64,000 nt of DNA from positions 434,001-498,000 of the forward strand of contig NC_083370.1 of NCBI RefSeq assembly GCF_029542785.1. Reading direction: 5' to 3'. Below the pieces are notes generated by a model. That model was not told where the DNA came from and did not search any database. It saw nothing but the letters and a program-made list of their open reading frames with translations. Position numbers and translations under genes: made by a program. Numbering within the stretch: the first letter of the stretch is position 1; each line of letters starts with the position of its first letter. Positions 1,701 through 64,000 of this stretch are shown one piece after another. Source of the DNA: Malassezia japonica. Taxonomy: Eukaryota; Basidiomycota; Malasseziomycetes; Malasseziales; Malasseziaceae.

Positions 1701-3438
1701 ATGGGCGGCGGCTGGCGCGGGTGCGTGGTGAGGCTAATGCAGGCGCGTCGAGTACGATGAGGCGGACGTCGCGTATATTCTCGAGGTAATGAACCGGACG
1801 TCGCCTCCGTGGAACGTGTCGCAGCTTGCGCGCGACCTCGCGCGCGAGCGGCCGGCGCATACCTATGCAAGCTATCAGACCTTTCTGCAGAAGAACATGC
1901 TCGATCGGCTGCATCTGCAGCAGCGTCTGCGGGACGCCAAGATCGCACGGGGCGAGGATCCGAAAGGCGTGCATGTCCAGCGCACGACGCGCGCGCGCAC
2001 ACGCGCCGTGCCGACCACGTCGGGGCGCCCACGCGTCGCCGGCGGCATGAGCGTCGGCGAGCTGCACGCCGCCTTTGCGCCGCGGTCCTCGTCGATCGAG
2101 TCACTGGATGAGCTCGAGAGCGGCGAGAGCGAGAGCGAGGAGGAGGAGATGGACGAGGCGGACCTGCTGCGCTTCGAGGAGCGGCAGACGCACACCGACG
2201 AGCCGCGGCCGACACCGGCCAAGGTGCGCAAGCGCGAGGCGTTTACGCTCGACGACCGCGAGCTGCTGCTGCGCAGACTCGGCGAGCTCCTTGGCGAGGT
2301 GCAGTGGGAGCGCGACGACGCGCCGCCCGAGCTTGGCGCGCCGTTCTGGGCGTCGCTCGAGCAGGCGGCGCCGCGGCACTCGGCGCGCTCGTGGATGCTG
2401 CACTTTGAGCGCTCCGCGAGGCAGTACTGGCGCACGGCGATGGACCGATGCGCACTGCGTCTCTCGCCCTCGTCTGTATTTTACGACGGCCAGGAGGGGA
2501 GCGAGGAGCCGGAGGACGAGGCGTCCGAGCCGGAGGACGAGGCGCCCGAACCCTCGGACGAGCCCGAGGCTGCTAACGAACCCGACGAGGATGCGGCGGA
2601 CGCGGCAGACGTCGAGAGCGCGATGCGCGAGGGTCATGCGCCTGTAGATAGCCCCTCGACGCCCCACGCGCCCCTCTCGGCGGTTCCGCGCCGCCTGACG
2701 CCCTCGGTGACGCCGCGCCGGGCGCCCCAGGATACCCCGACTGGCCCGGACAGTAGCGCGGACGTCTCTGCGCTCGTGGGGCCTGTCCAGACGCCGCCGA
2801 GTCAGGAAGCGTCCGCCGCGTATACCCCCTACTCTGTGCGAGTCGGCCAGCGGCGCGATCACCACGACGCCAAGGCGACGGCGCGGAAGCAGCAGGCGCA
2901 TCTGCCGCCGCCCGCTGCCCCATCGCCGCTCGACGAGCGCGCGAACCGCACGTCGTCGCCGCTCATCGGCACGCTGCCCCGCTCGGCGCCGCGGCCCACG
3001 GCCGCCGCGGCGCCGTCGCCGAGCCCGGTGCGGCGCGTGCGCCACTCGCTCACGGCGCTGCCCGAGCCTGCGCACGCGTGGCGCAGCAGCGCGTTCCGTG
3101 CGCCGCAGTACGCTGTCGAGCAGCGCCGCGCACGCGCAGAGTACGAGGCGCGCGTCTGGGAGCTGTGCAGCGACTTTGCGCTGACGTCCCCCGCGCAGCT
3201 CGTGCCGTTTATGGAGCCAGAGGAAGGCGACATTGACGGGTGCCGGCGGCGACTCGAGGCGTACCTCGACTCGCTCGCCGACTACTACGACACGGAGCGC
3301 ACGACGATCCTCGAGCTGCTCGAGGCGCAGCTCGGGAGCTTTGAGCAGGTCGTGCGTGTGCTCGATATCCAGCAGCGCTCGCTCGAGCGCTCGTTTGAGC
3401 GCTCGCGGTCTATGGATCGTTCGCGGACTGCGAAATAG
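1701..3438 (+). CDS. Rap1-like double-Myb telomere protein
   Basis: The start at 1701 uses a 20-nt first exon and a 22-nt intron at 1721-1742 (GTGCGT, branch CTAAT, CAG); the product is 571 residues. Without the intron the ORF would begin at 1789 and lose the front of a domain. Spliced residues 8-60 (VEYDEADVAYILEVM, then HTYASYQTFLQKN) resemble a Rap1-type Myb module. A second copy spans about 172-240 (FTLDDRELLLRRLGELL, then PRHSARSWMLHFER). The middle is long, acidic and Pro/Ser-rich. The last 110 residues (FRAPQYAVEQRRAR, LCSDFALTSPAQLVPFMEPE) form a helical block like a Rap1 C-terminal interaction domain. Rap1 family proteins cap telomeres, either on DNA or through TRF proteins. The assignment rests on motif shape only; another SANT/Myb regulator is possible. 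The last 29 nt appear to overlap the 3' coding end of the opposing lipase gene. Confidence 0.5.
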
Positions 3439-5890
3439 GTTCGCCCATGCGAAAGAGGAGCGCTGCGTTAGCACCAATACGTACATTTCCACAGTCCGAA
3501 TCGTTTGCCGAGTGGCTCGCCGGGCGCGTCGGTCGGGCGGTGCTCGCCGCCGTAGCGCAGCTCGACCTCGTCGTCGGCCATCGACGAGCGCTGCGAGTGG
3601 GTGCGGCCTGCCGACGGCCGCGCGGACTCCTTCGTGAGGCCGAGCGCACGCCGCCGCTTGGCCCGCAGGTGCAGGCTCAGCTTGAGCATTGTGATCGCCG
3701 ACGGCGTGTCGCGCCGCCCGACAATCGACGACGGGGGGGGGCACTCGTTGCGCAGGTCGGCCGGGCCGTACGTCGCGAGGTCCGTCCAGGTCGTCCCGTT
3801 CTCGCTCACGTCGAGGTCGCCCATATCGTCGAGCAGTCCCTCGGCCTGGGCCTTGTTCAGGATGCGGTTGGCGCGGCGCTGGTACTTGGCGCGCTTGCGC
3901 TTCACCTTGGCTGCGGTCCGGCGGTAGCGCGTGTCCCACAGCGTGTGGCCCTTCTGGAAGCGGTTGTACGTCGAGGCCTTCACCGCGCCGACCTCTTGGT
4001 AGGGCATACGGAGCGCCTGCATCATCGACGGCGGCTCCATCGGGCGGATCTTGCCGTTGACGTCGACGCGCTCGCGGATCATGTGGCTCTCGTACTCGGG
4101 GCGTTGCAGCGGCACCTTGCCCGAGTACATATTATCCTTCTGCGAGGCGGCGGCCGCCGTCGCGACCTTGGCCCCGCGGCGCACCTGGTAGCTGTGCGAT
4201 GGCGGCCCGTACGCGGCGGCGGCGGCGCTACTGTACTGCCACGCCTCGGCATAGTCAGGAACATTCGCCGCGGCCTCGGTCGTCGGCGCGCCGGTGACAA
4301 ACTTGATAAACGACGCCATGGCACGGAAACCGTACTTGGCCGCGACCGTCTGCATGAGCATGGTAAAGACGTGGCACTGGCCGTCAAAGACCTGGAGGTG
4401 CACGTTTGTCGGTTTGTCGTGGAACCTGCGCTGCGCCTCGCGCATCACCGGGAACTTGTCCATGAGGTCCTCGCGCAGCGGGTACTGGTCCGGGTGCGCC
4501 GCCTTGTGCGCGAGGTAGATGATCTCGTCGCGCAGCACCTCGCTGTCGCCAGCGCAAATGTACAGCGGCGGGAGCCCACCGAGGCTTCCGCTCAGCACGG
4601 GCGAGCACAGAGGGTGGAAGAGCTGCGCATTCGTCGCATACAGTTGGATCTGCGACGTGATCGGCATATCCTTGCCGTCCGGCAGGCGCAAGTGCACGAT
4701 GCGGTTCATCTCGCGCTCGGCCGGGGACATGTGCTCCTTGCGGCGCTTCTGGCGCTTCACGCCAAAGGTAAAGAGCGACTTTTTCTCAAACACGCCCGAG
4801 TCGCGCTGCAGCGGCCAGAGCGTGCTGGGCTTGTGGATGAACGAGTAGGGCGGGATGTAGTCCGTAGCCGTGTTCTGCAGGATCGACGGGAAGCTGTGTG
4901 TCAGGTCGCTCCATGGCGAAATGAGCACGCCGCCGGCCGGCAGCGGCAGGTCCAAGTCACGCAGCAGCTGCAGCAGCGCAAGGCTCAGGCCGCCGCCCGC
5001 ACTGTCGCCCGCAATCACGATCTGCTTCGGGTCCACCGCCTGGTGCTTGGCATTGGGCGGCGGGCGGATCAGGTACATGTACGCCGCGAGGCAGTCTTGA
5101 ATCGCACACGGAAACGGAAACTGCGGCGCCTTGCGGTAGTTGACCGCAAAAGCAAACCCGCCAAACTTGCGTGCAATGCGCAGGATCTGGAAGCGGTGCG
5201 TATTTACCGAGCCAAAGTAGTAGCCGCCACCGTGGATGTAGAGCATGACACGGCTCAGGCGGTCGCGTTCTTCCTGAGTGTCCGCAAACCGCCCCTTTTC
5301 GCCGGGCGGCGCCTCGGACGCTTGTTCGTGCTCGTGGCGCGGGTTGCGCTTGTTCGTCTGGCGCTTCATGCGCTTCGAGAGGGAGGCCGAGAGGCTCGCG
5401 TTGCGTCCGCTCTGCAAGTCCACGAGCGTGTGGTAGTCCGAGTACTGCGAGATCCACTCAGCCGGCAGTCCCGCGACCGTGCGCATCTGCCACCAGCGCG
5501 CGCCGCCGATCAAGGTCTGGATCTGCTCTGGGCCAAAGTAGCGGATGAGGAGCTGCGCCGCCTCGTCGCAGCTCTCCATCGGGATCATGACCTGCTCCGA
5601 GAAGCCCCACGGGGGCATCGGCACCTGCATGTCCGTGAGACCCTGGATATCCTCGGCGGTATGATGCGTCAGGTAGATCGTGAGCTGCTTCACCAGATGA
5701 AACGCCCTGGGTCAGAACAAACACGCACTGGTCATAGTAAAACTCGTTGGCGGTCTCGCGCGCATTGCGCGAGCCGAACTCGGTCCACAGACGGACATAG
5801 TGCTTCAGCGCATTCTTCGTGAGCCTCGTCACGTACCACCACTAGTGTCGGCGTGACATGCGCTAGGATGCCGAGCGTCGACACGGTCAT
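3410..5890 (-). CDS. Hormone-sensitive-lipase-type alpha/beta hydrolase
   Basis: The protein is a serine hydrolase of the HSL/steryl-ester or triacylglycerol lipase group, probably acting on neutral lipids at ER or lipid droplets. The HSL oxyanion box HGGGYYFGS and nucleophile motif GDSAGGGLSLALLQ are present. Candidate acid and base residues lie in ICAGDSEVLRDE and DGQCHVFTMLM. The C-terminal quarter is basic and low in complexity. Three 22-nt introns are inferred on the minus strand: 5815-5836, 5707-5728 and 3463-3484. The first gives the start MTVSTLGILAHVTPTLV at 5890, typical of fungal HSL N-termini, but its 3' site is AAG rather than CAG. The last moves the stop from 3468 to 3410 and adds SLLFRMGEPISQSANDP, so the gene would overlap the opposing Rap1-like CDS by 29 nt. 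Spliced length is 804 residues. The catalytic core is certain; both ends depend on the splicing model. Confidence 0.85.
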
Positions 5891-5926
5891 CACTCGCACG
5901 CGCCTCGCCGTGGAAGGTAAGGTTAT

Positions 5927-5952
5927 CACGTGGTTCCACGTGGATACACGTG
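5927..5952. promoter_or_regulatory. Three CACGTG boxes at exact 10-bp spacing
   Basis: CACGTG starts at 5927, 5937 and 5947 in the 229-nt region between the divergent lipase (5890) and cytochrome b5 reductase (6120) start codons. The 10-bp period would put the three boxes on one face of the helix. Confidence 0.55.
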
Positions 5953-6119
5953 GATCTCCGCGTGAGAGCCGTCAGTGTGTCATGCACTCGGCGCAGGCGC
6001 TCCTGGTCGTCTCCACAGTCGGAACCTTTGCCGGGTGCTTGTGGTTGGCGCATCGCATCTCGTCGTATTTTGCCGATACACACTGGCTTATTGAGGACTA
6101 CAGCAAAGCGACGAATATC

Positions 6120-6950: not shown

Positions 6951-6963
6951 ATAGGCTGCTAAA

Positions 6964-8173
<1,210 letters not shown>

Positions 8174-8845: not shown

Positions 8846-9605
8846 ATGAGCGAGCCGGAAGCGTGGCGCGCGGCGCTCGTGCGGGGCGCGACGTGGGTGC
8901 AAACCGGGAGTGCCGCGACGCTCGGCAGCGTGCTTGTTACGCACCTGGCCGCGCCGGTAGTCGCTGGCCTCGTGGGCCCGGCCGGCCTCGATAGGGCGAA
9001 CCAGACGATGCTCCTCGGCCGGGTGTACTACCAAAGCCCCATGCTGGAGCCGGTCGTGGTGTGGGGCGCGCTCGGTGCGCACCTGCTCTCGTCGATTGTG
9101 CGCCGCGCGCTCATGCGCCATGCCAAGTCAAAAGGGGCGTGGGACGTGCGCCGCTGGACGTGGGGCCAGTGGCACAGCGCCGCGGGCTTTGTCCTCGCCC
9201 CGGTGCTCCTCCTCCACGTCTGGACGAACCGCGTGGCGCCCGCGACGGCCGCGGCGCCCATCGCGGCGCTCTCGCCGTCGGAGCTCGATATGGCGTACGT
9301 AGGTTTCGGCCTCACCGACGTGCGGTACCGCGCCGTGTCGTGGGGCGCCTATACCCTGCTCATTGCCTCGACGGCCGTGCACTGGCTCGGCGGCGCGCCA
9401 AAGATGGCGCGCCGCCTCGGGCGCAAAGCCGTCTCGCCGCGCGCCGCCGCGTACGCCGCGCTGGGCCTCGGCGTACTCTTGGCGCTCGGGACAAGTGCGA
9501 TTGCACGCGACGGCGTCGACGGCGTCGGCGCGGCGATGCTCGAACGCGTACGTCGCCCTGCTTACCCAGATTCACGCATCCTACGCACAAGTATATAGGG
9601 TATAA
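8846..9605 (+). CDS. Mcp1-like mitochondrial outer-membrane protein (DUF1691)
   Basis: The product is a polytopic membrane protein of about 245 residues with paired DUF1691-like segments. The N-terminal half has LVTHLAAPVVAGLVG, LLGRVYYQSPMLEPVVVWG and LGAHLLSSIVRRAL. The second half has QWHSAAGFVLAPVLLLHVWT and a helix ending TAVHWLGGAPKM. These resemble yeast Mcp1, which suppresses ERMES (Mdm10) loss and takes part in mitochondrial lipid homeostasis. Near the 3' end a 22-nt intron at 9548-9569 (GTACGT, CTTAC, CAG) changes the tail to ERIHASYAQVYRV and puts the stop at 9603-9605, directly abutting the stop of the opposing IPI3. Read without splicing the ORF ends at 9598. The assignment is from recognisable motif order, not an alignment. 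Confidence 0.7.
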
Positions 9606-13013: not shown

Positions 13014-13516
13014 CTATGGCTTTGCAGTCTCCTCGGCAGCCTTTTCCAAGAGTTTCCATTCCTCTTCGATGCGCTCGCGCGCACGCACAATCTTGCTCTG
13101 GATGTAGAAGGAGCCGCTCCCGCCGCCCTCCTTGCCTTTGGGCGCAGGCGGCGCGTTGATCTTGAACAGCCGCTCGTAGTTCTCGCCGAGCTCGCTGCGG
13201 ATCGCCTCGGTCACGCCGCCCTCTTTCTTCATCGCGGCGGCCGAAATGTCGTTCTTGACATTGAGAATGAGCTTCGCCTCGTCGAGCGTCATACGGTGCG
13301 CGAGCGTAATCGCATTGGCAGCCGACCCAGCCTTGCCGCCGGCCGGCGCAGCGCCTTCGACCTGACCCGCACGAACGTCTGCGTAAGTAAAACAACGTAC
13401 TCCGCACAGCCTGGCGGCCCGCCTCCGCAAAAGCGCGGCCCAAAATACGGCTCCCTGTGAAGGCAATCTGCGCGAGAATCCGCGGAAGAGACTGCATCAG
13501 TCTTCGCACTTACCAT
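13014..13516 (-). CDS. PAM16: Mitochondrial import motor J-like subunit Pam16
   Basis: Pam16 (Tim16) anchors and restrains the J-protein Pam18 at the TIM23 channel. Two 22-nt introns are required: 13492-13513, directly after the ATG at 13516, and 13379-13400. Splicing gives the family start MSLPRILAQIAFTGSRILGR, then AFAEAGRQAVRNVRAG. The degenerate J-domain follows: MTLDEAKLILNVKN, then YERLFKINAP in place of a J-protein HPD loop, then SFYIQSKIVRARERIEEEWK. The product is 152 residues, near the yeast length of 149. The first exon is the start codon alone, so translation of unspliced RNA would read MVSAKTDAVS and fail. It shares a 41-nt promoter with the divergent gene at 13558. Confidence 0.93.
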
Positions 13517-14439: not shown

Positions 14440-16611
14440 TTACTGCAATGCGGCCGCTCCACTGGCCGTCGGCATCGGCACATCCTCGGCGCCCGCCAGC
14501 GGCGGACGATCGGTACGCGCCGCGCCGTCGTTCGGCTGGATCGGGCGCAGCTCGGCAACGAGCCGCTGCGATGCGGGGTTCTGCGCAAGGAGGTAGCGCA
14601 GCGTAAATATGGCGTATTCGCGGATGTCTGGGTCAGTCGGGCGACGTACATGGGTTGTGTTGATCGGCTTGTGTCATCGAGAGTGCGTCCAGCAGGCCAC
14701 CTTGCTCACGCACACGGTCTTGGAGCGCGGTCACCTCGGCAAGGCGCGGCATGCCGGGTGGCTCGTACACGATCGTGCCAATGAGCTGCAGCACGCTGCA
14801 CTTGAGGCGGTGGAGTGCCGGGCGGGAATCAGTGACGGGGTGGGACATCAGGTTGGGCGTGGGAACGTGGCCGTCCGGGAGCGGGGCGGCGGATGGCTGA
14901 GTGCTGGCGCCGGCGCCGGCGTCGGAGCGCATCGCGACCTTGTTGGGTGTGCCGTCGCGCATGTCGCTTGGGCCGTCGGCAGCGTGGGCTCCGTGTGCAT
15001 CGTCGTCGACGGCGTGTGCTCCGGCATGCCCGTCGGCGGCCGGTTCTCCGTCGGCATGCCCGTCGGCATGCCCGTCGCGTGTATCGTCCCGCATATCGTC
15101 CATCTTGCCATCCGGCATGCCGTGCTCCCCGTCCACCATGTCAGGCACCGTCTTGTCCGTCTTCTTGGCCTTGACGCTACCCGTCTCTTCCTCCTGCGAC
15201 CGCTTTCCACTGGTCTGGAACGGCGACTGGGCGGGAAAGAAGCGGTTGACTTCGTGCAGGAGCGCTGTGTGAGCGAGTATACGTACTAACGCACGTCTCG
15301 ACGATCTTGTCGTCGGGCGACCGCAGTCGCGCGAGGAACTGTGTATTTCCGGTCGTCTCGCGGCGAGCCACGTCCTCCTGGCCGCACATGCCGCTGAGAT
15401 GCAGGCACTGGAGTGCCGCCAGAAGTGCCATGTGCGCGCGAATCAATCCCCGAAAGTCGACGACGCCCCGTCCGTCGACGTGCTCCTTCATCGTTTGAAT
15501 GGTATAGTGAGCCACGTCGCGAAAGACGGAGAGAAGCGGCACCATCGAGTTCATGTACCGCTCTGATTTTTGCATCACTTTGCTGAGCATGCGAGAAGAG
15601 ATGCGATGCGTGTGTTGCTCGCCCTTGCACCGCTCGAGTCGCGACTCGAGGCAGGCGGCGAGAATGTGCAAGAGCGTCACCTGGCTCGTGCTGACGTGCG
15701 GCTCGCCGCCGCTCGTCGGGCGCATGTTAAGCAGTAGCTTGCCAAAGTGCCCGCAGCGCATGAGACGCTGCACGATCGAGGTACTGGGTCAGCAGTCTTC
15801 ACGTACATCACATCCACGGTCTCTTGAGCCATGGTCTGCACGCTTCCCCCCTTGGAAGGGTCGGAAATGAGTGCCGCGTCGTACACCATAATCACTGTCT
15901 CCATGATCTTGATGCCCTGCGGGGTCTGCACGAGGTCGAGGCTGGGTCAGCAAATAGTACGTACGCAAAGGAGACTTTTTGCGGCGGCGTCGTCATGGAG
16001 CCGTTGAGCTCCTCTTCGAGCGCCGTATCGACACAGTTCAGCAGGAGCACGGATGCAGCGAGTACTGTGCGTGCGTCGCTGCTCGACATGAGCCGCACGA
16101 GAGCATCCGGGCTCTGCGCTTGCTTTCCCAAAACGTGCAAGTCCCACACGATCTGCTGCAAAGCCAAGTCGCTCGTCACCGCATTTGCGAGCAGTTGCGC
16201 CAGGACGCGCACCACAGGAATAAGTGTCGGATCGACCATGTTCTCAAAGAGCAGCAGGTAGCTCATCACGCCACACACCTCGCTCCAGTGCCGCAAAATT
16301 GTCGCAGCATGGCTCGCCTGCGACGCCGAGTTCCGAGCGACGCCGAGCAGCGCGCGCATCCCATCTGCAGCCAGCTCACGTATTTCTTTGTCGGCGTACG
16401 AAGCATCTGCGCGGTGCTGTGCATCGTACGCTTGCCACTGGGCCCAGCGCTGGCCGAGCCACGTCCAGAGCGCCTCGGCATCGGCCTGTGCGCCGCTGGC
16501 GACCACACGCGCGTACACCTGCGCCGCGTCGACTGCGGCGCGTGCTGTGGCGGCTACAGGCGCATCGTCCCACGCCGCCCAGGCTGTTTGTACAGCCCCC
16601 AGGTCCGCCAT
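14440..16611 (-). CDS. Ataxin-10 family protein (Ctr86/Atxn10)
   Basis: This is an armadillo-like protein related to ataxin-10 and yeast Ctr86, families linked to cytokinesis and copper-responsive transcripts. Four introns are inferred: 15942-15964 (23 nt), 15784-15806 (23), 15265-15286 (22) and 14628-14649 (22), giving 693 residues. Spliced ends read DDKIVETCVTLLHEVNRFFP and, in the last exon, QHNPYIREYAIFTLRYLLAQ, the signature of the ataxin-10 C-terminal domain. The N-terminal half is helical repeats. Between about residues 480 and 550 (roughly 14980-15150) is an unusual His/Asp/Gly/Ala-rich insertion with DGHADGHADGEPAADGHAG repeats. It is divergent from SIP5 with 128 nt between starts. 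Confidence 0.78.
14960..15110 (-). repeat. Imperfect repeat coding for His/Asp/Gly-rich tract
   Basis: GC-rich imperfect repeats of the unit read as gatgggcatgcc or similar on the minus strand encode a tract with repeated DGHA and GHA units inside the ataxin-10 homologue. The spread of slightly different units suggests slippage expansion followed by drift. Confidence 0.6.
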
Positions 16612-33431: not shown

Positions 33432-33453
33432 GGTTGGGCTTGCTTACTAATCA

Positions 33454-45016: not shown

Positions 45017-45500
45017 CTACTTTTCGTTAAACTCGCCCTTCATGAGCTTCTGCAGACGCTCGGGCGTGAGCTCAATGCCGGCCTTTTGCAGCTCTTCCAC
45101 GACTGGGTAAGACGAGAAACGTACCTTTGCCGGTGTATTCGCGCACTTCCGAGTTGGTCGCGAGCTTGGCCAGCTGCATCATCGACGGCTTCTCGCCGCT
45201 GTTGACGTCGACGCCGTGCTTCTTGAGCACCTCGATCAGGCGGTTGATGGCAGAGAGCGCCTCGGGTGCCTGGCCCAGCTTCTCGAAGCCGGAAGGGAGC
45301 GACGAGTCCATGTTGCCGCGGGGGTCCTCGGACGCACGCGGCACGGCGCTCGTCTGCAGGCCGCGCACGGCGCACGACGGAGCGAGCGGCGCACACACAG
45401 CACGCATAGACATAGGTGCAGCCGCACGCACACGCACAGCATTGCCAGCACGCGACGACGCACGCAGCGCCAGGCTCATACCGCTCCGGAACAGGGCCAT
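45017..45500 (-). CDS. Probable mitochondrial protein of unknown function
   Basis: The start at 45500 (MALFRSGMSLALRASSRAGN) gives a classical Arg/Ser/Ala-rich mitochondrial presequence of about 50 residues. The mature part is helical: GFEKLGQAPEALSAINRLIE, VLKKHGVDVNSGEKPSMMQL, AKLATNSEVREYTGK. A 22-nt intron at 45103-45124 then joins VVEELQKAGIELTPERLQKL and MKGEFNEK. The spliced length is 153 residues. Reading through the intron would give a short aberrant end. I do not recognise a named family. It is divergent from ATG15 with 42 nt between starts, and that gap contains TGACTCA and CACGTG. Confidence 0.7.
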
Positions 45501-47260: not shown

Positions 47261-48137
47261 TCACAGGACGATGGGGTCGTCGCGGGTGCCCGATGGTGCG
47301 CGTGGATCGGGCGACGCGTCCTCGTCGCTGTCGTACACGACGATCGCGCCGTCTTCGGCGGCGTCGGTCTCGGCGCGCACCGCGTCGATCTCGGCCTGCG
47401 ACGCCGAGGCACACGTCTTTGCATCGCGAATACGACGTAGCGCCGCCTGTATGAGCCATAGAACGTACCTCGGCTGCCAACTCGCGCAGCGAGCGCTGGC
47501 CCGGCGCCGCGCCGCCGAGGCGGAACGTGCCTTGCTGCGTGCGCTGCCGCTGCAGCGCCTGCTCCGCGGCACGCGCGCGGCGTGCGTCTGGCGAGAGGGG
47601 CGCGTCGCGGCCGCCGAGGCGCACGCCGGGCGTGAGGAACCCAGCGCCGGGCCAGTAGCCCAGGCGCTGGGCGGTATCGTATTCTTCGGTGAGCTGCGCA
47701 AGCGTGGTATAAAACTGGGTATTGTGCGGCCCGCATACATTGTGGCTGTGTCAGATAGAAGACGTACGCAAGCTCATGGAGCATGCTGCGTCAGGCGCAC
47801 TACGTACGTTCCAATCACTTCGTTGCGTTCGAGGAACGCGTCGGAGCGGCCTGCATGCCGTAGCCTCAGACAGATCTTTGCGCCGCGATTGATATTCAGG
47901 CCCAGCAGGTTCGCGCTGCGGGGGTACATCTCGGCGAGCACAGGCAGTTCTACGTAAGCACGAACACGTACGCCACCCATGCCGCTGCATCAGGTCCTTG
48001 ACCGCCGCACCGACATCCTTGAGCATCGCAATCGCGCGCTCCGAGCCAGGGCGCTGCAGCGCCACATACTTCTTGATCGCCCCGCTTTGCTCCTCGGTCC
48101 GCGCGCCAGGGAACCGGCCGCGGCCACGCAAGGGCAT
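47261..48137 (-). CDS. WSS1: DNA-protein crosslink protease Wss1 (WLM domain)
   Basis: Wss1 is a SUMO/ubiquitin-linked metalloprotease that clears DNA-protein crosslinks. Four 22-nt introns are inferred: 47950-47971, 47786-47807, 47746-47767 and 47447-47468, giving 262 residues. Spliced sequence reads RHGWQLPVLAEMYPRSANLL, GLNINRGAKICLRLR, EVIGTMLHELAHNVCGPHNT, which contains the zinc-binding HELAH-6-H site. The tail ends VVYDSDED and DDPIVL, which looks like a SUMO-interacting motif. The MLHEL part of the active site is encoded by an 18-nt exon at 47768-47785. The start at 48137 (MPLRGRGRFPGARTEEQSGA) is chosen because the next upstream ATG (48197) overlaps the divergent SCC3 start. The C-terminal p97-binding motif is not obvious. 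Confidence 0.9.
47768..47785 (-). other. 18-nt exon of WSS1 carrying active-site residues
   Basis: This exon is flanked by 22-nt introns on both sides, each with GTACGT and CTGAC/CAG. It encodes MLHEL and parts of the neighbouring Thr and Ala codons, including the first His and the catalytic Glu of HELAH. Skipping it would remove six residues without a frameshift and abolish protease activity. Confidence 0.75.
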
Positions 48138-51100: not shown

Positions 51101-51542
51101 GACGAGGGCAGCGAGGCTCACTTTGTGGCTCTGTCGCGCCAGCTCGCAAATGCTACCATGATCCGAGGCCCGGGTTTCTCGGTTGTTCAGGCTGTGGAGC
51201 CGGACGCAATGGTGACTTTGCACGTTGCTGGGATCCAGCAAGTGCTGCAGTATATCCAGGATGGGACCGGAAACAAAGGGCACGAGCCTGCCTTCTTCAA
51301 GGGACTGTCCAATCTCTTGGCCACGGTCTCGTCTACGGACGCAATGAAGATGTAAGTCTCGATTCTCACCCAGCCATGCCACGCTGCACCAGCGATTCAC
51401 AGCTGCGCATGTTGAGCCCAAGACGGGAGTCAAGGAGTGGGACCCCTACTTTGCCTACGAGAAGCGCCTTTTGAACCTGGCCGCCAAAGATGCCAACTTG
51501 GTCAAGGAAGCTAGTCATTACGAGCCCGCCATAGTGAGCTAG
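48196..51542 (+). CDS. SCC3: Cohesin subunit Scc3 (STAG/SA family)
   Basis: Scc3 binds the kleisin Scc1 and DNA and is needed to load and keep cohesin on chromosomes. Four introns are inferred: 48449-48470 (22 nt), 50558-50579 (22), 51051-51073 (23) and 51352-51373 (22), giving 1085 residues. The N-terminus is basic and Ser/Glu-rich (SDSELSELSEDD). The STAG domain begins after intron 1 (ENWVVAFQGEPLDALAQLVT, FLFRLCGCDASISRD). The conserved SCD region follows: VRDVDAAIRLDCIEQLGALL, EYPTQYLQEFYFRHLGAALS, DPDASVRLRALRAVLGVC. C-terminal HEAT-like helices end LLNLAAKDANLVKEASHYEP. Splicing of the last two introns is needed to reach this end. The divergent promoter has an MluI cell-cycle box. Confidence 0.92.
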
Positions 51543-54902: not shown

Positions 54903-55398
54903 GCACTAAGCCAAAAATAAATCAAGATTTTAACCGATTATAAATTAGAATAAAATATAGTTTTTATAAACTACCGACCACAACGAGAGCTAACAACAAA
55001 CAATTAATTAATATAAGCATAGACATATATTGCATTATTATAAATTCAACTTTTATACATAAAGAACATTTTTGATATGAGGTTATTACTTTACACTTAA
55101 TACATACATTAATTTACATTTGCTTATAAATTGTTTTACATTTGAAAATAAATAAATATTATTTTATTCCGGCTATTTAATGCTTTAAACTATGTTTGCA
55201 TTCAAATAACTATAGCTAAAATGTTGTAGATATTTGAATCGTATTGTCATAAATAAATGGATTATTTATTACAATATGAGTTGTTCAAAAATAAATTTAG
55301 TTTAATGGTTTGCTTCGATATACACTGATAGTTCTGAAATATATAATATATATTGTGCAAATACAAAGTATTGGAAATACGACTTTTGAAAAATATGG
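54903..55398. other. AT-rich island, candidate centromere core
   Basis: About 500 bp without coding capacity, roughly 22% G+C by hand count (54961-55380), against about 60-65% for most of the window. TTATAAATT occurs at 54938-54946, 55038-55046 and 55124-55132, and AAATAAAT-type words recur. Neighbouring genes also have reduced GC. Malassezia centromeres are known to be short (3-5 kb of CENP-A chromatin) with an AT-rich core and a short AT-rich motif, and they can overlap genes; this island fits that description. A mitochondrial-DNA insertion is the main alternative. Confidence 0.6.
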
Positions 55399-57296
55399 AT
55401 GCGTACTGTTCGAAATGTAAGCTGGATGGCATGTGTGGAGAATAAACAGTGCGCTGTAGTCACGCACGCCCCACTCGCTTCCTGCACGATGGGTGGTGTG
55501 CAGGGGGAGTATGGAGCCCTCTTGAACTCAACTTTACAACATGCCCAGAGGTGTTGCTACAATATACCTTGTGATGCTAAAGACCATATTGCACATCTAC
55601 ACGCAATGCGTGAGCAGCTTGAGGCTGCGCTCGAGCTCTGTTGGAACAGGTCGAGTGGCCCTGTTTCACCATCTCTTGCCGGCCAAAGCTGTAAAACTGC
55701 ATCAGCTCAGATGTCAGCTAATGGACTGATATCAGTGTTCCCTGGGAGTTACATCCAATTATCCCCTGGTATTGGTAGGGAACTGGCTAAGCTCCCGGCG
55801 CGATATGTGTTTATGCTCATTCCCTTCCTGACTTTGCACCTGATTTTCCATGTGTGCAAGTCCAAGACTTCCAATGCTGCTCATCTATTGAAAAGTGACC
55901 TTTTCCCAAGCATTCTTTCATACTTGTTGACGCATGGTGCAACATGCGAGGTATGTACACTCGTGGAACTAGGGCTGACTGTTGTCAGGCAGAAACGTTT
56001 ACCAAACTTTGGATCTCTCTTGTATTTGCGGATGGTGATCTTGATCTAGCGTCGAAGCGCTCCATCGAAACACGGTCTCTAACAAGGTCACATCGTATGT
56101 GGTTGCGAGCCGAAGTAAAAGATTTCTTTCAGGACGATCCCAACTTGGCTATTGGCTGGCTGCATCCCAATGTACTTGAGCTGTTTACTGACGAGCCATT
56201 CTCAAAGCATTGCCGCGCGCTTCATATTATGAGCGGATCCAAGACAGTTATGTCTGGGCTTCTGGGCATAATTGAAGCTGCAACAGCAGCAGCAGAGAGC
56301 GAAGACATAATTGACATTCCTTCGGCCTTTCTATACGACCAACTCGCAAGAGAGATTGCTCGGCGAGTCCACAAGTCTTGGAATCAGAGCAAAAAAGAAG
56401 CCTCCGCGTTTGCAAAACACAGACATGAACAATATCTCCTGCAAATGACTTTCTGTGTGAGTCAGTATGCTTTGCATAATCATGCCCCCTTGCTTGTGAT
56501 TGCGATCGAGCTTTCAATCCTTTCCATGATATGCTTGAGTACACAGCACGGCACAGTGCACCCTACTGAGCTCCTCTATGCCAATGAATGTGCCCTATGC
56601 AACAAGCATACTCACGGTCAATCAGGTCATGGTGAACTGACCAAGCTTATCCAGATGCTATATCAACTTTACGATGGAGTAACACTGCAGTCCATCTCTG
56701 ATTCCCCTCAAAGCTCGCCACTTCGTGCGCTGAGCACAAATGGACTGGATTTGGGGCATACTTACATGCTGGTCTCCAAAATGATGAAATGGCATGCATT
56801 GGCATTGCCTGAAGCTCAAGCATTGTCCGTGTGTTCCAAGTGGATGTCCCCCTCCCAGCTCCCTTGCTCGCGTGAATTCTTTCGGCGAATTTCGTCGATG
56901 CAAGCTGATGCAGAAAACCGGGCACTTTGTCACTTGTCCCCAAACCGCTCGGGTTATGTTTATGATGATATTGTTGACGCATATGTTTTGCGTGATTCAA
57001 GTATACCCAACATGAGTCCTGTGCAGCAAGAAAACCGGCCGTTGTATAATCCTCAAGTCAACAGCATTACCAAGCGCAAACTCACGGAATGCGGTGCTAG
57101 CCCCACAGTAAAGGCTCAGGCCCCACTGACGTCACGGGAAAATGATGATGAACTTGATCTTTTGACCAACACGTCGGCCTTGGCCTCATCGCGAGTTTGT
57201 CGCAAAGTGAAGCGCTTTGATGTCGGTCAAGAGAACACTAGACAGCAAACTGTTCGTGGCATTTCGCGGCGCAAGTCGCTCTTGCCCTACTTGTAG
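55399..57296 (+). CDS. Unknown protein beside the AT-rich island
   Basis: I cannot name this gene. Two long ORFs in different frames are joined by an inferred 38-nt intron at 55951-55988 (GTATGT, CTGAC, CAG) to give about 619 residues from the ATG at 55399. Later ATGs (55426, 55489) are equally possible starts. It is mainly helical: HLHAMREQLEAALELCWNRS, LLKSDLFPSILSYLLTHGAT, EAETFTKLWISLVFADGDLD, WLHPNVLELFTDEPFSKHCR, AFLYDQLAREIARRVHKSWN. The C-terminus is basic and disordered (RVCRKVKRFDVGQENTRQQT, then SRRKSLLPYL). GC content and codon use are near balanced, unlike the rest of the window. Further introns are possible, for instance around 56458. Its place directly next to the candidate centromere fits pericentric genes but says nothing of function. 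Confidence 0.6.
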
Positions 57297-58455: not shown

Positions 58456-59523
58456 ATGTCTGGTAAGTTATTTCTTATGTCATTGCTAATCACAGCGACG
58501 TATGCTATATACACGTCGCCGAACCATGCGCCCGTCGCGTACCACCTCCCTACACTGATTGTCACGCCTTATGGTACGTCTCTTGCAGTTATTTTTTGCT
58601 AACCATTAGGCCAGCCTCAGCATATTTTGTATGTCAGCGTTTTGGGATACGGCTAACCGCAGGTACTCGTATGTGCACACGAACTACAACAAGGAGACCT
58701 ATCTCCTTACTCCGTACGTGCCTGCTCCTTGCTTACCTCTAGCTCCATGATGGGTGACCTGTGTGTGGCCAAGATGGTCCCGCCTCCCAACTCGCGCTAC
58801 CTCGGTGGGCCCGGCAGCGAGCCGCCGTCTCCGGAGAAGTCGGTGTTGTGTGAGGCCTCGCGGAACTTGCGTTGGACCATCAGCAACACGGGCATTCACG
58901 CGCCGGTGTACAAGCTGATGCTTCCCAACCCCGATATGCCTGGAAATGACCAGCCTCTGTTCCAGATCTCAAAACCGAACCCCAATGCGATGTGGTGGTC
59001 TATGTTCTACTTCACGTACGGTGGTCACCTTATTCCCCCCAAGCGTATCGAGTTTGGTCGCATCCAGAAGAATGCTGTGGCAGGCAATGGCGGCGGTGCT
59101 GGTACGCGTGTTACGATCATGGGCCGCACGCCGGAGGAGAAGGCTGTTTGGCAGACGCTGGGTGAAGGCAACGAAGATATGGTGGAATGGATCGTGCTGT
59201 GTGCTGCCTTGAACCTGATCGACGAGGAGATCGTCAAGGCTGCGTCGCGCCATACCGAGCAGCGGGTACGCAGCCCTGTCACTGCGCAGGCTCCCATGGC
59301 TCCGCCGAACCGCCCTACGGTTACATCGATTCCCCCCCAGAGCCAGGCACCGCCCCAAGCGGCGCGCAGTGGCCCTGGGCTGCAGGCGCGGCCGCCGCCG
59401 CCGCCCAACGCTCGTGGTCCTCCGACGAATGCAGGCGGCCCCAAGTTCGGAGGTGGAAAGCCCGCTGGAAAGGCGCCCGCGAAGAAGAGCGGCAACAAGC
59501 TGTTGAACCTTATGCGGTCTTAA
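58456..59523 (+). CDS. Conserved fungal protein of unknown function
   Basis: Five exons are inferred, with introns 58463-58495 (33 nt), 58574-58609 (36), 58629-58662 (34) and 58714-58742 (29). The first coding exon is only 7 nt. The 311-residue product begins MSATYAIYTSPNHAPVAYHL and continues LYSYVHTNYNKETYLLTPSM, MGDLCVAKMVPPPNSRYLGG. It then runs LRWTISNTGIHAPVYKLMLP, QPLFQISKPNPNAMWWSMFY, FTYGGHLIPPKRIEFGRIQK, EEKAVWQTLGEGNEDMVEWI. This block is evidently a conserved beta-rich domain of about 220 residues, found to my knowledge in basidiomycete hypothetical proteins. The tail is Pro/Gly-rich and basic (NARGPPTNAGGPKF, KKSGNKLLNLMRS). A tubby-like or scramblase-like fold is possible, but I do not assign it. 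Confidence 0.75.
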
Positions 59524-59656: not shown

Positions 59657-60574
59657 TTATAAAACAAGAGAACCCAACCCAGCGCATTCCAGTCGAGCAG
59701 GGACTTCGTAGAATGGCTTGTCGCTGACGTCGGACGGCGAGGGCGGTGCCGGAGCACCGCCCTCCTGCGCATTCCAAAAGGCGTCCTGAATAATGTCCAC
59801 ATGGAGTGTGCGCAGTTCCGTCTTGGGCTTGGCCTTGGCCGGTCGGCCAGGCGTGTGTATCGGCGCATAGACAAGCGTAGTTCCCTTGCGATACAGAGCA
59901 GGGAGCTTGTCATAGTTGATGCCAAATTGACGAAAAAGAATCTCGTGCTTGTCTTTAGAGTACGACCCCTTGAGTGACTCGTGTGCCTCGCGCTCCGTCT
60001 GCCCTCCTTGCAGTACCAATGCCCAGAAGGTCGTGTTGTACAGATTATTGATGTGTGCTGCGTCAGAAGAGTCACGTACTGTCTGCCTGGCGCCAGGCAA
60101 AGTAGTCGCGCACCTCGCGTGCGCTGGGGTACACGACCAGCCGCCCGTCAAACGACGGCGGGCTCTCGAGGGGAATCGACATGTACTTGCTCCACTGGAA
60201 GACATAGGTCCCTGTAAAGATGGACACAATGTGGGACACGAGTTTGCTGCATAAGCCAGAGCACCTACCTCTGCCGCCGTGAATACAACGTCGAGTCACG
60301 ATCAATAAGAAAACTGTACTCGTCGCTCTCTCCAAACGCGAGCTTAATGTGTCCTTTGAACTCGCGCAGGACCGCACGCGCCGCCTCGTTCATCAGCTCG
60401 AGCGCAGGCGCATCGTTCGGCTTGGCAAACTGGTGCTGCTGCGAGAAGCTGGGTAAGCCGGAGCACTTACCGATGAAACCCGCGCCCGTCGATACGCACG
60501 ACGAGGTATGTGCACGGGAGTGCTGCGTCGCTCAGCTCAAAGTCGCGTACATAGGCGTACCGCGACCCTGCCAT
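59657..60574 (-). CDS. THG1: tRNA-His guanylyltransferase
   Basis: Thg1 adds G-1 to the 5' end of tRNA-His by 3'-5' polymerisation and is essential in yeast. Three 22-nt introns are inferred: 60449-60470, 60247-60268 and 60058-60079. The start at 60574 gives MAGSRYAYVRDFELSDAALP, then TYLVVRIDGRGFHRFSQQHQ, with the metal-binding DGRGFH. GHIKLAFGESDEYSFLI holds the second catalytic acid pair. RREASKLVS-like joining is seen as RRQSKLVSHIVSIFTGTYVF. DGRLVVYPSAREVRDYFAWR, ADTHINNLYNTTFWALVLQG and LKGSYSKDKHEILFRQFGIN complete the family pattern. The product is 283 residues. All three introns disrupt conserved blocks, so they must be spliced for function. It shares a 32-nt divergent promoter with PEX12. 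Confidence 0.94.
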
Positions 60575-60606
60575 GGCGTAAGAAGACCTCCACACTTGTC
60601 TCCACG

Positions 60607-61876
60607 ATGGACGTGCTGTCGAGCATTGACCCCACTTCCTCGGGCGGCTCCCAGGCGGACCCCTATCGTCCCTCGTTCTTTGAGCTGATTGCACAGGAGC
60701 AGCTGTCGTCCTTGCTGAAGCCGGCGGTGCGCTATGTGCTTACTGTGCTCGCGCAGCGCAATCCGCGCTACCTTCTGCGGATCGTAAACCGCTTCGACGA
60801 GATCTATGCGCTGCTTATGCTCGCTATCGACCGGCATTACCTGCGCACTTGGAGTACGTCGCACTGCTCACACAGATGCAAGCTTTACAGAGAACTTTTA
60901 TGGCCTCAAGCGCCGCCGCCGCCCGGCGGTGTCCACCAAGCGCGTCGAGGCCGCCGTGTCGCACCAGGCGTTACAAGCGTCGCAGCATCTGCGCCCCCGC
61001 GAGGTCAACCTGTCGCTTCTGGCTTTGGTCGGGCTGCCGTACCTAGAGACCAAGCTCACGCAGTACTGGGAGCACCTCGGCGGCGGTGTCGGCACCGACG
61101 ACCTGCTCGGCGACGAGCCCGACCAAGCCACATTCCGCGGCACGGACACGGACACGAGTCTGCGTCGCCGCTGGGAGGACGCGTTCCGCAAAGGATACCC
61201 CTACGCACAGGTTGCGTACCAGCTCTGGATGCTGGCCTACAACATCGGCTACCTCTTCAACCGCATGCCGTACTGGCGGCCGTGGTACCGCTGGATGCGT
61301 GTCGACATCCGGCGTATGCAAGGCGACGAGCAGCCGCTTGTCGCGGCAAGCGACCGCCCCCTGCCCCCCCTGACCAAGTTCCCGATGCTCTTTAGCGCGC
61401 TGCTTGCGCGCCGCGGTGCTGCGTTTGTGTTTGAGATGCTCAAGTATGCGTTGCCTGCCAGCATCTTTTTCTTCAAGTTCCTCGAGTGGTGGTACTCACC
61501 GAACAACCCCCGCCGTCGCCGCGGCGACGATGACGACGCGAGCCCCCGCGCGCAGGTGAAGCCGCCTGCGCCGTTGCAGCCGAGCGACGACGGTGCGATG
61601 GTCGAGCGGCCGCCGACGTGGAAAGACCCCCGCATTCTGACGAGCGGTGTGCCGGATGCCGCGCTCTTTGCCGACGAGGATGCGCCGGCGGCGCTGCTGC
61701 ACAACTCGTGCCCCCTCTGTGGCGTGGCGCCGATCCAAAACCCCTGTGTGCTGGCGACGGGCTACGCATTCTGCTATACGTGTGCGAACGACTACGTGGA
61801 CAAGTTCCATAGGTGCCCGGTGACGCTCGCGCCACTCCCTGGCGGCATCGAGCAGATCCGCAAGGTGCTGGTCTAG
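60607..61876 (+). CDS. PEX12: Peroxisomal RING-type ubiquitin ligase Pex12
   Basis: Pex12 forms, with Pex2 and Pex10, the peroxisomal membrane ligase that ubiquitinates the Pex5 receptor for recycling. The start at 60607 gives MDVLSSIDPTSSGGSQADPY, then RPSFFELIAQEQLSSLLKPA and RNPRYLLRIVNRFDEIYALL, the family N-terminus. A 22-nt intron at 60854-60875 links YLRTWN to ASFTENFYGLKRRRRPAVST. Helices include VAYQLWMLAYNIGYLFNRMP and FEMLKYALPASIFFFKFLEW. The C-terminal degenerate RING has CPLCGVAPIQNPCVLATGYA, FCYTCANDYVDKFHRCPVT. The length is 415 residues, close to other fungal Pex12. Its TAG and that of the opposing UBP14 share the palindrome CTAG at 61873-61876. Confidence 0.93.
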
Positions 61877-64000
61877 ACGCGGTGGAAGACGTAGAGATAG
61901 GCGCTGGGTCAGTAGCACAACGTACAGCTCCGAGAGATGCTCGACACTCGAGTCGTTCGACGCCTCCGGCTCGCGTGCAAACGGCGCACGGACGACCTTT
62001 TCGTCGTTGAAGAACGCCCAGCCCTCCTTGGGCTCGGTGCCGTGGTGGACGTGGGCGACATAGTGGCCGCTGTGCACCGACGGGCCGCGGTGTGTGATGA
62101 AGCTCGCGAGGCGGTAGCGCGGGGCGTCGACGAGGCCTGGCGTCGCCGGCGGCCCGCTCGGCGCGTCGACGTCGCCCGTGTCGTCGGGGTGCTCAAAGAG
62201 CCACGCCACTGCCGCCTCGGGGTTGCCCGTGAGGCGCAGTGCTTTGGTAGCCTGCGCTGAGCTGAATCCCATCTCTTCGAGCATCGACGTGTCCGGCTTG
62301 GACTCGCCGAGCGGCGCGTCCAGCGACGCGTCTTCCATGCGCTCAAAGAGCCAGTTGGCGGCCGCCTCGGCGTTTCCGGCGGCGTCCAGCGCGCGGCGCG
62401 CGCGGTTCTCGCTAAAGCCCATGGCCGTGAGCATGCTCAGCGCCTCGAGGTCGACCGTGTCCGGCGCTGCATCGTCCGGAAGCGCCTCTTCGCTGCTCTG
62501 CATGCCGTGGCCCTGGAAGGCGGCAATGTCGAGCTCGCCCTCGAGCGGCACCTGGAACGGGACATTGACCTTTTGCGGCACCCAGTTCACCAGTTGGAAC
62601 CGCTGTGCCTGGACGACGAGCACTTCTGGGAAGGTCTTGAACTTGGTCGTCTTTTCTGCCGTGACCTCGGTGTGGCACGCCGGGCAGTGGTAGGGCAACG
62701 ACTCGGGTGTGGTGAATGCAGCGAGGCTTTCTTTGAGCGTCACTGGCTCGTAGAGCCTGCCGCTAGCCGCGTCCGCGTGCCGGTCGTCCGACGCGCGCTC
62801 GCGCACCGCGACCGGGAGCGCGACGCCGACCTCGCGGGGCTCTTCGCTGTACCGCACGCGCTTGCACTGTGTGCACTGCAGGCGGTGTTCGAGCGCGTAC
62901 GACAAGGCGTGTGTCGGATCGACGTCCGGGTGCGGCTCGTTGTGCACCTTTTGCACAAAGTGCTGCAGGAACTCGTCGGCGTCCTGCTGGCGCATTGTGC
63001 CAAACTCGGCGTGGCCTCGGCCCAGGAGCGCCTTGAGCATGGCCGGCTTGATGCCAGCCTGGAACGCCACTTCTCCCTCGGCGCCCGGACGCGGCACGGC
63101 GTAGCGGCCCGAGAGCAGGCCGTCGGCCAGCTTTCCCAGCTGGCACGCGAGGCACGCGGCCGGCATCGCGCTGCACTCGGCAATGTGCTGGGCGTGCTCC
63201 GTCGAGTTGTACCGCGCCTGGAACGCGGGCAAGGCAAAGAGCGCCTGCAGCACCGAGGCCATGTAGCAGCTGTTGCCGAGGTTGCGCAGGCCCGTGTATC
63301 CCGGCCCAAACAGCGGCTCGAGCGCGCGGCCGTCGTCGGTGGTCATGCTAAAGTCGAAGCGTGCATTCTGCTCAAGCTGCAGCTCGGTCATGCTCTTTTC
63401 CGTCTTGCTCTGCTCGGCGACGTTCATGCCAAAGTGTGCGAGGTGCTCGCCGAGCGCCGGATCGACACGCGCGTCGTTGCACGCGTAGCAGTACACGTCG
63501 CCGGTGCCTTCTGCGGTGATGGTGCCCTGCTTGACGCTGCAGGGGTGCCCCGACGCCTCAAAGTGTGCGAGGCCGTGGCTGTTGCCCGCGACGCCGCCAA
63601 ACTGCGCGCGGCCGCACCCGAGGTGGCCGCACGACAGGCAGAGCCACAGGTTCGACGTCAGGCCGCACTCGGCGCATGCCGCATTGGCGAGCTCGAGCGG
63701 CGTGGCGTCGGTCTGTGCGAGGTGCTTGGTGTGCTCGCACGGCACGACCTCTTCTTCCCACGCCTGCACCTCGGCCTTGTGTGCGGACGAGGTGGCGCGC
63801 AGGATGCCCTCGGCGACGGCCGTCAGCACGTCCGTCTTGGGCAGCTCGCGCCCGTGCGTCGGATCGCACGCGACACAGCGCGGCGTCCAGCTATACGTGT
63901 ACTCCTCCTCCTCCGGGCGCTCGACCACCTGCAGCTTGGTCAGCGGCGCACGCGGCTTGGGCGTGCGTGTGAGCGTCACGACGATCGGGTGCTCGCTCTT
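61873..64000 (-). CDS. UBP14: Ubiquitin-specific protease Ubp14/USP5, 5' end beyond window
   Basis: The enzyme disassembles free polyubiquitin chains. The frame is open to the window end (KSEHPIVVTLTRTPKPRAPL), so the N-terminus is missing. In order: a zf-UBP domain (NAACAECGLTSNLWLCLSCG, HLGCGRAQFGGVAGNSHGLA), then the catalytic Cys box GLRNLGNSCYMASVLQALFA and the KPAMLKALLGRGHAEFGTMR / QQDADEFLQHF region. Two UBA domains lie inside the catalytic domain (MGFSENRARRALDAAGNAEA; MGFSSAQATKALRLTGNPEA). The His box ITHRGPSVHSGHYVAHVHHG follows. A 22-nt intron at 61904-61925 joins HLSEL to AYLYVFHRV at the C-terminus, a typical USP5-family end. Without splicing the frame continues as antisense to PEX12 to 61496, which is not credible. 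Confidence 0.95.

Follow-up and report, generated by a model that had tools for sequence, protein, structure and literature searches.

Putative introns of mostly 22 nt in the genes of the yeast Malassezia japonica

The stretch of DNA analysed here, referred to as the window, comprises 64,000 nucleotides (nt) of contig NC_083370.1 of Malassezia japonica (positions 434,001 to 498,000), and many of its genes are interrupted by short segments that begin with GT, end with AG and contain a CTNAY motif resembling a branch site. Judged from these signals, the genes of this skin yeast seem to harbour tiny introns by the thousand; most would be exactly 22 nt long and very few shorter. Local analyses were performed on 264 kb, that is, the window plus 200 kb of contig C1; a strict form of the motif was also counted in the complete 8.43-Mb genome.

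Intron candidates in the genes of the window

Gene models for the window place 44 introns in 20 of 30 genes; four of these introns, of 64–88 nt, seem to be spurious. The coding model overcalls a few long introns, and it missed WSS1, which was built by hand. With a slightly looser motif, scanning the window gave 34 segments at a length of 22 nt, 7 at 23 nt and 1 at 21 nt, in accord with the earlier estimate of about 40 introns of 21–23 nt, 33–34 of them exactly 22 nt, and five individually named segments, when their letters were re-read, matched the description previously given of them. Gene names that go beyond Pfam families follow the initial annotation or common usage. Support from reading frame, as cited below, refers to a test that is based on codon use in the flanks of a segment and is independent of the gene models.

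Many of the candidates lie inside a Pfam match of the spliced protein. On the minus strand, these are a 22-nt intron in a LYS1-like gene (7973–7994, AlaDh_PNT_N match, also supported by frame), the second 22-nt intron of PAM16 (13379–13400, Pam16), 22-nt introns in an ataxin-10-like gene (gene 14440–16611, intron 14628–14649, Atx10homo_assoc) and in a tRNA thiouridylase-type gene (21613–21634, tRNA_Me_trans), the four 22-nt introns of WSS1 (introns 1 to 4 at 47950–47971, 47786–47807, 47746–47767 and 47447–47468, WLM) and the three 22-nt introns of THG1. Introns 1 and 2 of the latter (60449–60470 and 60247–60268) fall in the Thg1 match and are supported by orthologue alignment, and intron 3 (60058–60079) falls in the Thg1C match, at a junction matched by orthologues. 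On the plus strand, a Rho-type GTPase gene (18800–19446) has introns of 26 nt (18848–18873) and 23 nt (18931–18953) inside its Ras match, and 22-nt introns are found inside the CENP-C_C match of the MIF2/CENP-C gene (23591–23612 and 23704–23725), the ADK match of an adenylate kinase gene (38222–38243, within the P-loop, and 38624–38645) and the Pex2_Pex12 match of a PEX2/PEX12-type gene (60854–60875).

Other introns are supported by gene model and frame. Those of the minus strand comprise 22-nt introns at 5707–5728 in an alpha/beta hydrolase gene identified by Pfam (3410–6053; motif also present), at 15265–15286 in the ataxin-10-like gene, at 44458–44479 in gene model 44100–44740 and at 45103–45124 in gene model 45017–45500, which has no Pfam match; 23-nt introns at 15784–15806 and 15942–15964 in the ataxin-10-like gene and at 21056–21078 in the tRNA_Me_trans gene, where the junction lies between two Pfam domains; and, in gene model 38937–40426, likewise with no Pfam match, introns of 23 nt (39576–39598) and 21 nt (40028–40048, with CTCAC as its branch motif). 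Those of the plus strand are 22-nt introns at 9548–9569 in gene model 8846–9605 (motif also present), at 20587–20608 in gene model 19771–20779, which lacks a Pfam match, at 45858–45879 in a class-3 lipase-like gene with a weak Lipase_3 match, and at 48449–48470, 50558–50579 and 51352–51373 in an SCC3/STAG cohesin gene (Pfam), which also has a 23-nt intron at 51051–51073.

When the frame test was applied to all 34 window 22-mers with no confidence cut, removal was favoured in 25, retention in 2 (those starting at 1721 and 61904) and neither in 7 (3463, 13379, 19404, 21957, 44689, 47746 and 47786); of these nine, the segments at 13379, 47746, 47786 and 61904 fall within Pfam matches of the spliced protein. 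The one at 61904–61925 (minus strand) is a 22-nt intron in a ubiquitin hydrolase gene, close to its 3′ end and inside the UCH match. The remainder are 22-nt candidates supported by motif and gene model, at 1721–1742 (plus strand) near the start of gene model 1701–3438, at 3463–3484 (minus) in the alpha/beta hydrolase model, at 19404–19425 (plus) in the Rho-type GTPase gene, close to its 3′ end, and at 44689–44710 (minus) in gene model 44100–44740, or by motif, at 21957–21978 (minus) at the start of the tRNA_Me_trans gene, the model of which has an 88-nt intron that shares its 3′ end with this candidate. A further 22-nt candidate, at 1519–1540 (minus), has the motif, and the frame is kept on its removal. 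The first 22-nt intron of PAM16 (13492–13513, minus) is placed by motif and gene reconstruction immediately 3′ of the ATG (stretch 13492–13516), and so the start codon alone is the coding part of exon 1. A 23-nt match at 44047–44069 is doubtful, as its downstream frame margin is 0 and the gene model passes over it.

Abundance, length and internal geometry

Exact 22-nt matches to GTRNGT-N7-CTNAY-N-YAG number 34 in the window, against 0.05 ± 0.22 (maximum 1) expected from 100 dinucleotide shuffles. Genome-wide, the strict form GTRNGT-N7-CTNAC-N-CAG occurs 2,458 times (1,256 and 1,202 copies on the two strands), compared with 3 occurrences of the control, which was the same pattern read backwards. 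The coding model of the 264 kb contains 142 genes, with 171 introns in 86 of them, the lengths 22 and 23 nt accounting for 89 and 27 introns, respectively; this corresponds to about 1.2 introns per gene, a figure that overcalling may inflate. In the 200 kb of C1, lengths of 22, 23, 24 and 25 nt were represented by 69, 23, 7 and 8 matches, respectively (controls 0, 0, 1 and 0), and lengths of 27–28 nt were found as well. It is apparent that 22 nt is the mode of the distribution and, with few exceptions, its floor, and that a right tail is present. Thus, the near-fixed length proposed in the initial annotation holds for the existence of a 22-nt class but not for a fixed value, since longer introns in the window had been overlooked: the 26-nt intron at 18848–18873 and four of 29–36 nt within 58463–58742.

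The position of the putative branch site was determined with total length left free. The A of CTNAY was at +15, +16, +17, +18, +19 and +20 in 0, 0, 115, 26, 9 and 6 matches, respectively, the corresponding control counts being 1, 0, 1, 0, 3 and 0. For the 200 matches with the A at +17 or later, the count of bases from it to the last G is 5 in 142 and 6 in 29 (controls, 7 of 25 and 0 of 25). The close spacing of branch A and 3′ splice site noted earlier is evident from these data, but the figure of about 6 nt requires adjustment, in that the A is position 17 of 22 and 5 bases follow it. Longer modelled introns carry their extra length mostly between the 5′ splice site and the branch and not 3′ of the branch, their distance from branch to 3′ end being mostly 5–8 nt, and in the 21-nt intron of the window the A is still at +17, the shortening being on the 3′ side, with 4 nt to the end. 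Because the A position is empty at +15 and +16 and full at +17, and because longer introns grow upstream of the branch while the 21-nt intron keeps its A at +17, the limit looks to act on the distance from the 5′ splice site to the branch. The suggestion in the initial annotation that such a length would press the limits of U1/U2 co-binding is a reasonable conjecture, and a constraint of that kind would be expected to appear at just this distance.

The same data bear on the possibility that the introns are real but that 22 nt is a historical or selective mode, such as a 3n+1 class maintained because retained copies shift the frame and fall to nonsense-mediated decay, with no limit set by splicing. 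A length of 22 is indeed 3n+1, so that retention always shifts the frame, and a relative seemingly uses 21 nt at matching positions (see below), so that the minimum can move. However, lengths of 23, 25 and 27–28 nt also occur, 24 nt (3n) is not clearly depleted relative to 25 nt (7 versus 8 matches in the 200 kb), and the gap is one of branch position (none at +15/+16, 115 at +17) and not of one frame class of lengths. A historical or selective mode of this kind is considered unlikely.

The modelled 22-nt introns have a G+C content of 56 percent. C is found at +4 of the 5′ splice site in 78 percent of 170 22-mers, and G at +5 and U at +6 in nearly all modelled 22-mers, both in part by construction. 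The consensus, GTACGTCGC...GCGACTTAC, looks nearly self-complementary, and an intron hairpin was therefore considered; it was rejected, as no covariation beyond z 2.8 was found in the 170 matches. This result is also pertinent to removal by a non-spliceosomal route, for example of the IRE1/tRNA-ligase type, which the small size and near-constant length of the segments might suggest. The largest Watson–Crick excess (z 2.8) involves the adjacent positions 7 and 8, so that the introns themselves show no pairing covariation of the sort expected from the conserved junction stem-loops of the IRE1/HAC1 type, and a spliceosomal consensus is present at all three sites. A route of this kind is thus regarded as very improbable.

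Two introns of one gene (C1:81053–81074 and 81292–81313) are identical across all 22 bases. Recent copying, as in introner-like elements, is not supported: the one identical pair compares with 0.27 expected (maximum 2 in 30 shuffles), and the numbers of pairs at one, two and three mismatches (6, 54 and 242, against means of 4.4, 40.5 and 206.5) are within the largest shuffle values.

Reading frame, protein continuity and tiny exons

Of 103 22-nt matches, 67 could be assigned with confidence in the frame test, and the frame was kept by removal in 58 of these, by retention in 4 and in neither way in 5. The corresponding counts (removed, retained, neither) were 17, 0 and 1 of 18 for 23 nt, 8, 0 and 0 of 8 for 25 nt, 5, 3 and 1 of 6 for 26–30 nt and 2, 2 and 1 of 3 for 15–21 nt; for 24 nt, where both ways are possible, removal and retention each fitted in 3 of 3. 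In contrast, for 856 GT-N18-AG controls free of the motif, the frame was kept by removal in 52 and by retention in 771.

Twenty-five distinct gene models were run against Pfam (26 entries, of which one was a fragment of another and three were shortened to their N-terminal parts); ten of the models came from C1, chosen from 33 listed. Matches were used for 20 models, among them one with a DnaJ match that was kept although under its cut-off; four models had none, and one had a match below cut-off that was dropped. Inside a single continuous Pfam match lie 37 of 59 junctions, in 19 of the 20 domain-bearing models, and 30 of the 37 derive from 22-nt introns; in addition, 4 of 4 junctions of WSS1 and 1 of 2 of PAM16 are so placed. 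GT and AG ends were demanded by the search, but protein continuity at the junctions was not, and it was found nonetheless. In all six genes compared, the unspliced piece scored lower than the spliced protein: 21.2 versus 95.1 bits for CENP-C_C, 48.0 versus 176.4 for WLM, 138.8 versus 322.9 for Glyco_transf_15, 100.8 versus 209 for tRNA_Me_trans, 102.6 versus 133.7 for Thg1C and 107 versus 143.4 for ADK. The unspliced piece was the longest one for five genes and, for WSS1, the third-longest, which holds the GPH motif. Together with the frame test, these results bear out the earlier contention that conserved proteins are rebuilt when the segments are removed.

Two genes contain exons that are shorter than the introns beside them. 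The mannosyltransferase gene at C1:80693–82036 is modelled with nine introns, each exactly 22 nt in length; GTACGC, a weaker donor, is found in one, and eight fall within the Glyco_transf_15 match. The deposited M. japonica protein, MJAP1_000050 (P0121), is identical to the product of this nine-intron model except that it lacks four residues, FWTN, which are encoded by a 12-nt exon (C1:81168–81179) flanked by two 22-nt introns. FWTN, FWSN or YWSN is present at this position in all six other aligned homologues, including those of M. furfur, M. obtusa and M. cuniculi. Since residues kept in six homologues are missing from the deposited protein, its annotation probably took the two introns and the 12-nt exon, 56 nt in all, for one intron; at the same time, that annotation already implies 22-nt introns in this gene. 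In WSS1, an 18-nt exon (47768–47785, minus strand, from the gene reconstruction) sits between two 22-nt introns and encodes MLHELA, residues that belong to the HExxH motif. Among 10 aligned relatives, 8 contain the stretch encoded by this exon; M. sp. CBS 17886 and M. caprae lack it in their deposited proteins. Omission of the tiny exon lowers the Pfam score from 322.9 to 303.3 bits for the mannosyltransferase and from 176.4 to 143.8 for WSS1.

It might be argued that the segments stay in the mRNA and are skipped by ribosomes. Translational bypassing has been reported for mitochondrial genes of some yeasts, and what is directly demonstrated here is continuity at the level of protein. Nevertheless, GT...CTNAC...YAG are splicing signals that are not known to have a role in bypassing, the longer introns are framed by the same motifs with similar spacing from branch to 3′ end, and the deposited protein lacks the segments. 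Bypassing is accordingly held to be most improbable.

Homologues from relatives (candidates limited to proteins 0.55–1.75 times the query length) were compared at the intron positions. No protein named M. japonica was among the best 120 THG1 or WSS1 matches, although the species is in the database; in the list of matches, some names were truncated or absent. The THG1 of M. japonica is closest, among the matches listed, to those of M. brasiliensis and M. furfur. Three of seven aligned Malassezia THG1 proteins (M. brasiliensis, one of two from M. furfur, and M. sympodialis) show neither gaps nor additional residues at all three junctions; of the other four, one from M. furfur departs beside junction 3, two begin after junction 1 and one is short of 15 residues before junction 2. 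Insertions were also observed. M. vespertilionis THG1 (P0017) has 10 extra residues at the third junction. A WSS1 protein that is 79 percent identical in the alignment (P0241) has 7-residue insertions, equivalent to 21 nt, at three of the four places where M. japonica WSS1 has an intron, that of M. furfur (P0249) has 8 extra residues at one position, and those of M. psittaci (P0243) and M. yamatoensis (P0246) have 8 at another. These residues seem to be translated leftovers of ultra-short introns, and, as far as protein letters permit, they fit GT...CTNACNCAG or near variants. Because such leftovers are visible only if their length is a multiple of three, they give no length distribution for the relatives.

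The refutation anticipated in the initial annotation, that errors of sequencing or assembly produced the frameshifts, can be judged from the same data. Error is classically suspected where conserved genes are frameshifted, but errors would not share a consensus, let alone in 2,458 copies versus 3 in the control, nor at positions common to relatives. The motif, its genome-wide number and the orthologous proteins leave this explanation with scarcely any credibility.

Several other features of the window may be mentioned. The model with the four introns of 29–36 nt (58456–59523) has no Pfam match and lies about 3 kb from an AT-rich stretch at 55000–55499, where the G+C content falls to 27 percent (47–48 percent in adjoining bins). 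Malassezia centromeres are AT-rich, and this stretch could be a centromere core. No gene models were placed between 52.5 and 58.4 kb, although long open frames are present there. On the minus strand, 24075–33443 is taken up by a reading frame of 3,122 codons that has no intron.

Splicing machinery, proposed mechanism and related systems

Components of the spliceosome were sought in the assembly. The U2 gene, with GUGUAGUAUCUG, has the normal branch-binding GUAGUA, able to pair with CTNAY, and the U6 gene is unaltered, with an ACAGAGA that is compatible with the 5′ splice site. The motif, its genome-wide number, the walls in length and branch position, the reading frame, the continuity of the proteins and the normal U2 and U6 together argue that the segments are, very probably, U2-type spliceosomal introns of M. 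japonica at a functional minimum. Loss of Slu7, which was considered on account of the proximity of the 3′ splice site to the branch, was rejected, as Slu7 is present (E 2e-91). A gene resembling the large subunit of U2AF is also present; read exon by exon, it scores below the curated cut-off (224 versus 310 bits). C at +4 would not pair with the usual U1, and METTL16 has been linked to the +4 preference of 5′ splice sites. Loss of METTL16 as the cause of C at +4 is somewhat weakened by a match to its family (Methyltransf_10, E 6e-41, with one internal TGA), a family that matches bacteria too.

In the mechanism proposed here, the intron would be mostly signal, with GUACGU (6 nt) as the 5′ splice site, a spacer of 7 nt, CUNAC (5 nt) as the branch site, then a single free base and CAG. 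The segments would be removed from the RNA with the A at +17 as branch point, and the wall at 22 nt would be the sum of two limits, a branch A not before +17 and a 3′ splice site usually 5 nt further on. The first limit might reflect a need for about 7 nt between the 5′ splice site duplex (with U1, then U6) and the U2–branch duplex. As 5 nt after the branch leave no room for a polypyrimidine tract, the branch may be recognized by SF1/BBP and U2 pairing alone, with U2AF or an SPF45-like protein tethered via protein contacts, and the first AG 3′ of the branch would serve as the 3′ splice site. In human introns, U2AF-dependent splicing is efficient only with at least 8 pyrimidines, and where the tract is truncated, U2AF gives way to SPF45, which acts through SF3b155 (PMC8363638). 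Deletions would shrink introns to the wall, and any that became shorter would go unspliced and be selected out, leaving a spike at 22 nt and a right tail.

Several observations weigh against this interpretation. U1 small nuclear RNA (snRNA) was not found in the whole assembly by covariance model or by patterns for its 5′ end and loop. The RF00003 model returned nothing (41 of 132 first-look candidates scored). ATACNTACCTG occurs in 17 places, none with T at N, so that ATACTTACCTG is not among them, and no U1 match was obtained in those loci. ATACNTACC with a downstream Sm-like site occurs in 6 places, none U1-like by eye, the one that overlaps an earlier locus being the only one run against the U1 model. 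ATACTTACC occurs in 13 places, all of which were fetched, with no U1 match, and a loop-based pattern in 28 (17 in the control), of which 4 were fetched, again with no U1 match; the best-looking of these candidates appears by eye to be coding. U2 and U6, unlike U1, turned up immediately, and the non-detection of U1 may be a search miss and is no proof of its absence. A further reading, conceivable but improbable, is that the early steps of splicing in this yeast depart from the textbook: two complete introns and a 12-nt exon together span 56 nt (C1:81146–81201), on which U1 and U2 particles could hardly all be accommodated side by side. On this reading, 5′ splice sites may be chosen mainly by U6 and U5, and U1 may leave early, be changed or not be needed for the 22-nt class; the lack of a canonical U1 5′ end in the assembly would in that case be real and not a search miss.

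Further points of this kind concern the wall and the intron calls. Among the confident 22-nt cases, there remain the 5 of 67 in which the frame fits neither way and the 4 of 67 in which it fits retention. The A of CTNAY is at +10 to +14 in 14 matches of the 264 kb (5 in the control). Total lengths of 16–21 nt, with 1–6 bases between the signals, show a small excess genome-wide (43 matches versus 12 in the control), 4 of the 43 being 21 nt. Five local matches fall below 22 nt: two sit inside 22-nt introns, a circumstance that explains part of the excess, a third is the window's own 21-nt intron, and the other two have no explanation. The wall may be specific to the species rather than physical: the WSS1 protein P0241 seemingly reads through three 21-nt introns, at least one with its A at +16, and in Stentor the branch A is at +10 (PMC9505925). 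Moreover, CTNAY-like motifs and GTRNGT earn credit in the intron calls, which miss introns without them, and the apparent strictness of the class is partly due to the design of the search.

The traits of known ultra-short intron populations, narrow lengths above a wall and a near-fixed distance from branch to 3′ end, are found in M. japonica; some of these populations also have a reduced spliceosome, which is no strict requirement. As the initial annotation stated, such introns are on record for a few protists and nucleomorphs, the literature describing them in heterotrichs, mikrocytids and chlorarachniophyte nucleomorphs, and the sequences analysed here are read as resembling these minimal introns, in this case in a yeast. 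Stentor coeruleus has near-uniform GT-AG introns of 15–16 nt, with the branch A mostly at position 10 of 15 or 11 of 16, so that 5 nt follow it, as in M. japonica; unlike in M. japonica, the 5′ splice site is 10 nt from the branch, the introns are AU-rich with no strong branch consensus, and Slu7, present in M. japonica, is listed as not found, as is Prp18 (PMC9505925). Chlorarachniophyte nucleomorph introns resemble those of M. japonica in size range (18–21 nt in B. natans and 18–23 nt across four genomes), in numbering hundreds with narrow lengths and in an intact U6 ACAGAGA (PMC6461891). In B. natans, however, no motif can be identified at the 5′ splice site, and U1 and U5 are shrunken (PMC6461891), whereas M. 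japonica has a strong GUACGU in an ordinary nuclear genome. Introns of 16–17 nt in Mikrocytos mackini also combine narrow lengths with conserved sequence, but they number 224 and are served by a strongly reduced spliceosome (PMC10245619), compared with 2,458 motif matches in M. japonica. The model advanced for mikrocytids, deletion bias acting against a functional threshold (PMC10245619), fits the spike and tail seen here.

Within the genus, 'very short introns' have been stated (PMC7426719), and when M. restricta was annotated, introns were allowed down to minima of 20 and 15 (PMC6473144). Longer introns are indicated elsewhere: by our reading of the columns, a median of 30 nt for M. restricta and one of 40 nt for M. 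arunalokei (PMC9241646), and a mean of 76–79 nt in what is taken to be M. globosa (PMC4634964). Malassezia has been counted among intron-poor fungi (PMC8476143, PMC3744415); the gene models here, with possible overcalling, give the above figure of about 1.2 introns per gene. Ustilago maydis, a basidiomycete of the same subphylum, likewise has a CTRAY-type branch site, but with a weak consensus and in far longer introns (95 and 126.88, read as median and mean), and fungal branch sites are typically about 13–25 nt from the 3′ end (PMC2483917). No account of the 22-nt class or its geometry in Malassezia was found in the literature searched, although an earlier description is possible.

Taken as a whole, the findings have consequences for annotation, a 12-nt exon having been lost from a deposited M. 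japonica protein and intron peptides seemingly left in the proteins of relatives. They supply a figure that can be tested, namely a branch A not before +17 and a 3′ end about 5 nt later, and a yeast host would permit reporter tests of the minimal distance from 5′ splice site to branch. A length of 22 nt is close to that of the smallest intron known to be removable by the splicing machinery, and near-minimal introns would thus extend from protists and relic nuclei to the compact genome of a yeast that keeps Slu7 and a U2AF-large-like gene.

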